Of a DNA stretch of 64,000 bases, positions 5,095 to 9,774 are shown piece after piece (position 1 is the stretch's first letter; each line of letters starts with the position of its first letter). The translations under genes and the position numbers were made by a program. Source of the DNA: Neonectria sp. B-13 (taxonomy: Eukaryota; Ascomycota; Sordariomycetes; Hypocreales; Nectriaceae). The notes below the pieces were generated by a model, which did not search any database, was not told the origin of the DNA, and saw only the letters and a program-made list of their open reading frames with translations. The stretch spans positions 4,570,309 through 4,634,308 of the forward strand of contig NOKP01000002.1 in NCBI GenBank assembly GCA_002682825.1, read 5' to 3'.

Positions 5095-7630
5095 TCAGCG
5101 AATGATGCCTCCCTGCTTGTCGATGCCTTCCAGTCCTTCGAGAATATCACTACCGCCCAGCATCCCCATTCCCGTCCCGCCAGCCTTTGTCCCCCTCTCA
5201 CGAGACCATACTTCATGAAACTTGATGCTTTTGTCGCTAGATGCCACCACAATGCAGCCCTCTTGGGCAGCCGCACCGCCCTTGTGGTTCTTGCTGTACG
5301 CCGGCCCCCGAGGATATGGGATGGCGTAGAGAGCCCGCAACTCACCCTCCCAGGGAATCGCCGCCACCTGTTTGCACTCTGGCCAGCTGAAGATGGCGAT
5401 CCGGTACGGGTGCTCTGGCTGTGCATATCCAAACGTGGCCGCAATCTCGCGCCGTGCTGTTGACCAGATGAGTGACGTGACCTGGGCCGAAACGGATATG
5501 GTAGCCAGAGCTGTGCCAGAGGCAGTGTGAAAGAAATGGATGCACTTGTCGTTAGAGCCGCCTCCTGTAGCAACCAGCCCGCGTCGCCAGGGACAGAAAG
5601 CGATAGCTTTGACGGCGGCGCCATGCACCCAACGGTGTCGTTCAAGGCCAGAACCGAGGTGGCGGAGAGTGTCGAGGGAGGTTCGAAATGTCTCAACCTC
5701 TGCACTATTTTCGTCCGCCCTTGGATTTAGATAGGGCACCATGGTGCTGTGTCTCGATGGGCTTGCCCCGTCTCTCATGCTCGCTCCCACATTGAAACTG
5801 AAGGGCTCCAGGCTCTGCAAGTGGCCGTTCTCGTTCCGGGCTGGGTAAATAAGGCTCTTCTCAAGGATGCGATCGACCTCGAAGAGACAACAGAGGTTGT
5901 CGTTGCCTCCAGATGCAAAGAGCTTCCCATCGGGTGCCCAAGCGAGACCGCAGATCTGCTGGCTATGGATGGTGATCTTGGCAGCAAGAGACACGGCTCC
6001 GGGCCAAGTGTCTCTCGAGACTTCCCAAGCCATTGGCCATTCAACCACGTAGTAATACAAGCTCCCCATTTCATCTCCGACGACAAGATCCTCGGTCTGG
6101 ACAAGCGCACCCGCATTGAAGGGATCCTTCGATGGACGCAACGTGCATGCTGGGCGCCAGCTCACGCAAGCAACCGGGAACGGCTGTTGCACCTCAAAAC
6201 GAGGTAGCCCATCGTAGACTGATCTGAGAATAAGCGATCCATCTGATTGACCGATTCCAAGAATGGCCTTGGCGCCCTGTGTCGACGAGAATGCGATAGA
6301 TGTCAACCAGGCCTCAGAATGAGCACCGTGTATCATATTGACGCCGCGGTCCTCGGACCAGGCATACAGAAGGTTGCCCAGGCAAACAACGAGGGTTTTA
6401 GACGTAACCGAGTATGCCAAAGGGGAGCAATAGAAGTCATCCTTCAGATTCGGTGCGTCTAGAACTCTAAGTTTTGTTAGAAGTGCAATCTTATGTATAC
6501 ATTCTTGTCCTTGAACAGCGTACCTGAAGGGCGCAGTAGGAATAATCCGGCTTCGCACTGGCCTAGGGATTTCTGTTCTTCGTGTCAGCTCTCTCTCGAG
6601 GTTACAAGGTTCTTTCTACTCATACTGGCAGGCTGTTCTTGGTTGGTCCACCGATGCCCGTTCCAAACTGTTCTTGTCGTGTCCTCGATTCCCCATTTCC
6701 TGTTGCTCGATATAGATCGTGGAAACGGAAGGCTCCGGTCGAAGTCAAATATTTTACGCACCCTGTCAATGTCCAAGGCGGTAGCAATTCGACCCTCGTG
6801 TTTCTCTAAATCGTCTTGTGTGCTTGGCTTGGTGTTATAGAATGCGGTTGAGAAGACACGAGCACTGGCACTACGTCGGACTAGATGCCCCTGTCCATCA
6901 TCGACTGGAGCTGTACCGTGGGCCAGTCCCCTAACTGACCAGACTGCGCCTCGGCTCAGTTGCCTCATTACTCCATGGTTTTGTGACAAAGGAGCTAAAG
7001 CCGGGCCAACTAATAGAGCAGGTTAGCATTCGTCTTCAAAATAGAATGAATGGGCCAACCTCTGTTGAGGACTCTCTCGTCAGCTTGAAATGGAGATCCC
7101 CTGTCTGGTACCATAGCACCTTCTCGCGCTGAAAACGGGTCGATGGAAGCGATATCGTTCCTTATAGTCCTTTCTTGCACCGAAAGGTCCTGAGGCTGCT
7201 TCGTCGTTCGATATCTCTCTGCAATGGCTGATGCGAGATCTCGCCTTGGGACGTATCGATCCAATGTCCGCCCATTTGCGTCAAGTTGTCTTCTCTGGAG
7301 TAAGGAGGAGGCGGGCGAGTTTCGACAAGGAGTCTTGAAGGCGCTGTTTGCTTCCTATTCGCAAAGTGGACGACTTAGAAACGACGTGACGCGGGTGGTT
7401 TTTGGCGCCTTGGGGGATGGGGTATCCGGTTCCGTCCCCTCAATCGAAGAGTCTGCACTATCACAAGATCCCGAGCCGTCGAACACAGGGACTCGTGTGT
7501 ATTTTCGGGATGGTGACGCCGTGGGGGAGTTTTCGAATGAGTCGTAACCAGAATCCGCTGGACTGTGTGGCTGAGGGCTGGCACCTTGGTTCTGTCGAAA
7601 CGTCCTTCGGGAGCGAGTCTGACGTCGCAT
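5095..7630 (-). CDS. AMA1: Meiosis-specific APC/C activator Ama1 (Cdc20/Fizzy family), frame interrupted by one TAG
   Basis: CDS complement(join(5095..6466,6524..6572,6626..7009,7060..7630)), 792 codons including the terminal stop, with one internal TAG at 7357-7355. Ama1 recruits substrates to the anaphase-promoting complex in meiosis and spore formation. A disordered N terminus (DSGYDSFENSPTASP) is followed by the C-box DRYVPRR (residues ~124-130) that contacts the APC/C. Next come an EKHEGRIATALDIDRVRKIF segment, the family signature RVLDAPNLKDDFYCSPLAYS, a seven-bladed WD40 region, and the C-terminal Ile-Arg tail (GGIIR). Introns are 50 bp (7010-7059), 53 bp (6573-6625) and 57 bp (6467-6523); the last is stop-free and in frame. 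The TAG cannot be removed by a convincing intron, so the full product probably needs UAG-to-UGG mRNA editing; otherwise only 91 residues are made. Family identity is very secure; the editing mechanism is inferred. Confidence 0.9.
7347..7365 (-). promoter_or_regulatory. Hairpin presenting the in-frame UAG of AMA1 (putative A-to-I editing site)
   Basis: On the coding (minus) strand TTTGC (7365-7361) is followed by a 9-nt loop GAATAGGAA and then GCAAA (7351-7347), a perfect 5-bp inverted repeat. The stop codon TAG (7357-7355) is inside the loop and its A (7356) is the central base. The A has U on its 5' side and G on its 3' side. Fungal sexual-stage A-to-I editing is known to favour a 5' U and hairpin loops, and UAG edited to UGG would be read as Trp. 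That editing happens here is an inference. Confidence 0.6.

Positions 7631-8333: not shown

Positions 8334-9774
<1,441 letters not shown>

Follow-up and report, generated by a model that had tools for sequence, protein, structure and literature searches.

In fungi, edited premature stop codons are debated either as adaptive switches or as accidents that have merely been tolerated. The closest described system concerns AMA1 of Fusarium graminearum, in which a UAG is reported to be converted into UGG by sexual-stage A-to-I editing; the FgAMA1 deletion mutant is described as passing through meiosis and then producing abnormal ascospores (PMC4817773, PMC11156358, PMC12582100). That AMA1 is edited in F. 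graminearum is thus already known. According to PMC4817773, tandem UAGs in kinase subdomain IX of the kinase gene PUK1 undergo editing in perithecia, and one of the two codons is also present in NCU03242 of Neurospora crassa.

Here we describe the AMA1 gene of Neonectria sp. B-13, which has an in-frame UAG at codon 92. We consider it highly probable that sexual-stage A-to-I editing by Tad2-Tad3-Ame1 corrects this codon, which would otherwise act as a premature stop. In the predicted scheme, this deaminase would convert the UAG into a codon decoded as Trp in fruiting bodies, the only tissue in which full-length meiotic APC/C activator would be made.

The AMA1 gene and its internal stop codon

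In the window (the whole 64,000-nucleotide stretch of DNA that was analysed), the AMA1 gene occupies positions 5095..7630 of the minus strand and consists of 791 codons and a final TGA, with one internal TAG. Its exons (7630-7060, 7009-6626, 6572-6524 and 6466-5095, minus strand) add up to 792 codons when the final TGA is counted, and the earlier note was right that this sum requires the TAG, the single internal stop, to be decoded. The three introns, on the same strand, are located at 7010..7059 (non-canonical donor GTTGGC, branch site CTAAC), 6573..6625 (donor GTATGA, branch site CTGAC) and 6467..6523 (donor GTACGC, branch site CTAAC); alignment indicates that the frame across the first of them agrees with the homologues. 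The TAG is codon 92 (7355..7357, minus strand), its middle A at 7356 being the predicted editing target. As had also been stated, the frame that opens at the ATG at 7630 runs through the TAG at 7357-7355 into the part encoding the C-box and WD40 repeats, and it is indeed open up to intron 1 at 7059.

The TAG is followed, 31 codons on, by the C-box LDRYVPRR (codons 123-130; 7241..7264, minus strand), which is conserved in the homologues. The WD40 part matches Cdc20 and Fizzy-related chains in the PDB and reaches 183.6 bits against PF24807, which is under the curated cut-off of 200, while the C-terminus reads GGIIR and so ends with the C-terminal IR. Several homologues bear the name of the meiosis-specific APC/C activator AMA1, and among the AMA1 sequences the nearest comes from Neonectria ditissima (86% identity when aligned, paired with support of 98/96 in the tree). 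Judged by homology, the gene is an orthologue of the named fungal AMA1 genes, with the C-box, the Cdc20/Fizzy-type WD40 part and the C-terminal IR all present, and its product is predicted to activate the cell-division machinery in spore formation. As the earlier note pointed out and as follows from the sequence, an unedited mRNA gives a product of 91 residues without the C-box, the WD40 part or the IR tail, which would presumably not work. Codon-usage scoring on either side of the TAG was of no help in telling the true frame from the others, and a homologue search with the 91-residue N-terminal part alone returned no match.

The frame that stays open past the TAG, and the several relatives whose gene models begin downstream of it, would also be accounted for by ribosomal readthrough of the UAG or by a downstream restart, both without RNA editing. 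However, GAA-UAG-GAA is not known to be a readthrough context, and a restarted protein would lose the C-box because no in-frame ATG occurs between codon 93 and this motif; we therefore regard readthrough or restart as exceedingly unlikely.

Immediately upstream of AMA1, and in the same orientation, there is a GH18 chitinase gene (window positions 8334-9263). Two database models, P0023 from Fusarium langsethiae and P0088 from Purpureocillium, contain both AMA1 and GH18 chitinase domains, which suggests a conserved neighbourhood of the two genes and fused gene models.

Codon 92 in relatives and the question of splicing

In the tree, the Neonectria gene belongs to a clade (support 99/97) with seven other rows, from Neonectria, Dactylonectria (two), Ilyonectria (two), Thelonectria and Mariannaea. 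Both of the clade models that cover codon 92 skip it, and the other five begin downstream, two of them (P0009 and P0013) too far downstream to tell much. The Dactylonectria macrodidyma model lacks a block of 13 residues in which codon 92 falls, and it picks up again at ANDAFK, the equivalent of ANSAFK (codons 94-99), which starts two codons past the TAG in our gene. This row is misplaced in the large AMA1 alignment, where it has a residue at column 92; two other alignments place the gap there. The N. ditissima model parallels our sequence as far as approximately codon 86, where it skips ahead towards exon 2. Protein similarity extends right up to the TAG from either side, and the predicted coding sequence is otherwise intact around and beyond this in-frame UAG.

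Since alignments of the poorly conserved stretch around codon 92 disagree, column counts at this codon were dropped and lengths between codons 57 and 122 were used instead. Among the Fusarium models that cover the stretch, 21 of 22 run through codon 92, the exception that is short there being F. sp. NRRL 66182; 7 of the 32 other covering homologues are also short, so model breaks around this codon have other causes too. The comparison of orthologues called for in the earlier note gave a qualified answer: both covering models of the clade skip the codon, but they are gene models and not DNA, and it is in this sense that conservation of the TAG in the relatives is suggested. Codon 92 is situated in a poorly conserved stretch; the idea that the TAG replaces a conserved Trp was dropped. 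As a separate observation, the AMA1 model of Cosmosporella (P0021) drops nearly all residues of codons 57-122, together with the C-box, and may possibly conceal another stop.

The same comparison bears on whether the TAG arose by mutational decay, in a gene that is dying or is broken in this strain, or else by an assembly error. It hangs on a single base, and the assembly contains inverted duplicated stretches; on the other hand, the remainder of AMA1 is intact, at 86% identity to N. ditissima, and gene models from related genera run into trouble at this very point, which indicates that the stop is probably old and shared. Decay or assembly error consequently appears very unlikely to us.

Another alternative is that an unrecognised intron removes the TAG, the TAG itself perhaps serving as the 3' splice site as in the Dactylonectria model, in which case editing would be unneeded. 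Listing every GT..AG intron of 40-400 nt in exon 1 whose excision would take out the TAG while preserving both the reading frame and the C-box gave 28 candidates. Not one of them has a GTRNG donor, a motif that is found nowhere in exon 1, or a branch site of the CTRAY or YTRAY type, whereas a CTRAY branch site is present in all three accepted AMA1 introns. A YAG acceptor occurs in 9 of the 28, and GAATAG would itself be acceptable as an acceptor. The earlier claim that no canonical donor nearby allows a frame-keeping intron is borne out by these counts, but the shape of the donor carries less weight by itself than it had seemed to, because intron 1 of this very gene uses the non-canonical GTTGGC. 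The database models of both D. macrodidyma and N. ditissima splice around codon 92; gene finders are, however, reported to invent introns at edited stops, and PMC4817773 mentions 69 further F. graminearum genes in which the annotation had added introns to dodge edited UAGs. Moreover, the span of codons 57-122 comprises 66 residues here against 59-70 in 21 of the 22 covering Fusarium models, as expected for an unspliced exon. We conclude that a hidden intron is unlikely, and we retain editing of the UAG as our preferred explanation.

Local context, editing machinery and a kinase for calibration

The TAG can be drawn within a hairpin with a 5-bp stem and a 9-nt loop (7347..7365, minus strand), whose formation depends on the context considered. 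The sequence UUUGC-GAAUAGGAA-GCAAA spans precisely 7365-7347, the target A being the middle base of the loop, and on this point the earlier note was accurate. At 37 C the hairpin is the minimum-energy fold with flanks of 15, 20 and 25 nt (hairpin-loop probabilities of 0.97, 0.83 and 0.79, respectively). With a flank of 30 nt, the length in published analyses, the target A falls in an internal loop and the hairpin probability is 0.30; it is at most 0.04 with flanks of 40, 50, 75 and 100 nt at 37 C, and 0.11 with a flank of 50 nt at 25 C. Of the 1108 TAG triplets in the window, 20, 28, 26 and 35% equal or exceed codon 92 in hairpin-loop probability with flanks of 15, 20, 25 and 30 nt, respectively. 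The hairpin alone is thus unremarkable, being unstable past a 25-nt flank and common by chance, and we dropped it as strong evidence.

A hairpin loop is favoured, and not required, at the premature-stop-correction (PSC) sites of fungal A-to-I editing. The neighbouring bases are preferred ones at five of six positions, including the U at -1, but not at -2; 20% of the 1108 window TAGs reach the same level. These preferences were taken from PMC9600606, which reports that neighbouring bases outweigh structure for editing, and the weak hairpin therefore counts little against editing.

The genes for the putative editing machinery were sought in the whole assembly, which comprises 60.9 Mb in 123 contigs and consists in part of inverted duplicates. 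We take locus L013 to be Tad2 from its deaminase family and from characteristic motifs; likewise, L073 is presumably Tad3, as judged by its deaminase family (PF00383, at a loose threshold) and motifs. Two DNA patterns for Tad3 had no match in the genome. The likely Ame1 is L020, a DUF726 gene (G000:C2:1178145-1178681, minus strand) with Met-Val at the Tad3-contact position. These residues are 31 and 30 positions ahead of the nucleophile Ser, which is the spacing from MV500-501 to S531 in F. graminearum Ame1. All three DUF726 paralogues have an Asp at +58, and the other two have SL and AH where L020 has MV. The Met-Val pair is described in PMC11087585 as essential for Tad3 binding and for editing. 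On these grounds, the Neonectria genome encodes predicted Tad2 and Tad3 and a predicted Ame1 with Met-Val.

As for the assembly itself, contigs C47 and C27 (and also C45, C50, C72, C95, C105 and C114) carry genes in duplicate, the two copies being inverted and equal in score. For C47 and C27, the paired gene positions sum to the full contig span + 1, as in a mirror image. Such mirror-image copies imply that palindromic artefacts probably make the assembly larger than it should be.

A kinase gene of the same genome provided a calibration. In a screen in which 123 of 317 kinase candidates were scored, 16 rows had an internal TAG, of which 15 were read (including L029 and L053), the sixteenth being a mirror copy on C47. 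In most of them the TAG is marginal to the match or falls in what looks like an intron; L068 alone has TAGs flush within a conserved motif. L068 (G000:C1:4482355-4484900, minus strand) is an NDR-type, PUK1-like kinase with tandem in-frame TAG-TAG at the WW of DWWS, and its closest relative among the matches listed is a Neonectria punicea kinase (92%). Together with the nearest AMA1 being that of N. ditissima, this points to a Neonectria relative, and the reading of the DNA as Fusarium was rejected. From the motif match and the homologues, and not from a locus tag, L068 is likely to be the PUK1 orthologue, and it is another predicted editing target.

The homologue comparison covers 120 listed of 719 found, with class labels assigned from genus names. 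Among these 120 rows, 44 read WW at the position of the tandem stop, 63 have no residue there and 13 have one. The rows without a residue include all 20 from Fusarium, all three from Neonectria, Dactylonectria and Thelonectria, and the N. crassa row, whereas WW is read in all 31 Leotiomycetes rows, again among the 120 listed of 719. By this calibration, gene models that break throughout a clade can serve as an indication, albeit an indirect one, of an edited stop. The SPO22, Pal1 and DNA methylase domains of the Neonectria genome had no stop within their matched parts and so gave no further positive control.

Two proposed sites in AMA1 and comparison with known systems

Most Fusarium gene models of AMA1 break at a codon other than that of the Neonectria stop. 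At Trp388, just ahead of LTSVAFSS, 20 of 28 Fusarium models have no residue and 8 have Trp, and 7 of the 20 breaking models resume exactly one codon on. The other homologues have a residue there in 65 of 66 cases, which is Trp in 60 of those 65. The F. solani models disagree with each other, P0042 breaking and P0006 having Trp. The tree places the 11 breaking Fusarium rows that were used on one side of a branch, with weak support (70/0) because F. sp. NRRL 66182, which has Trp, sits beside them; the Trp-bearing zealandicum, solani-type, decemcellulare and nematophilum rows diverge earlier. These gene models suggest that the editing-dependent stop of Fusarium AMA1 is at Trp388. The corresponding codon of the Neonectria gene, ahead of LTSIAFSS, is TGG (6307..6309, minus strand), and the Neonectria stop is thus not at the probable Fusarium site.

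As the precedent named in the earlier note, FgAMA1 holds for the gene, which is reported as edited in PMC4817773 and PMC11156358, but not for the site, which would differ between the two fungi. With that change, and with the hairpin reduced to a context-dependent feature, the A-to-I correction first put forward in the earlier note is likely and is the best-supported reading of the UAG.

An editing-dependent stop seems to have arisen on two occasions in AMA1, in the lineage of Neonectria, Ilyonectria and Dactylonectria and, separately, in derived Fusarium species; the gains would be separate since the stop is at codon 92 in the former and apparently at Trp388 in the latter. Two gains at different codons, if true, are the pattern expected from selection. 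With some reserve, we lean towards the view that AMA1 is a repeated target, hit at codons 92 and 388 in two lineages of Nectriaceae, and that this points to selection for keeping the activator untranslated outside the fruiting body, not to tolerated accidents. A practical consequence is that many Nectriaceae AMA1 proteins in the databases are probably mis-annotated around one of these two codons. In the literature searched, we found neither a second AMA1 site nor any account of the gene being edited beyond Fusarium, and a different site in another lineage would, within that literature, be new.

The present case is best placed among the known ones by its likenesses and differences. With FgAMA1 (FGRRES_10728) it shares the gene, an orthologue whose UAG is edited in F. 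graminearum; the Fusarium stop would, however, interrupt the WD40 part at Trp388, whereas that of Neonectria precedes the C-box at codon 92. PUK1 (FGRRES_01058) and NCU03242 are similar in having premature UAGs that are reported to be edited to UGG in perithecia and to have been hidden by mispredicted introns (PMC4817773), but the stops in PUK1 replace conserved Trp codons, whereas codon 92 of Neonectria AMA1 is poorly conserved. CHE1 of F. graminearum is also reminiscent of this situation, as its premature UAG is reported to be conserved among relatives and to spoil gene models; it differs in being edited in hyphae, and in involving one site in close Fusarium species (PMC11169179), as against the two sites in two lineages proposed here for AMA1.
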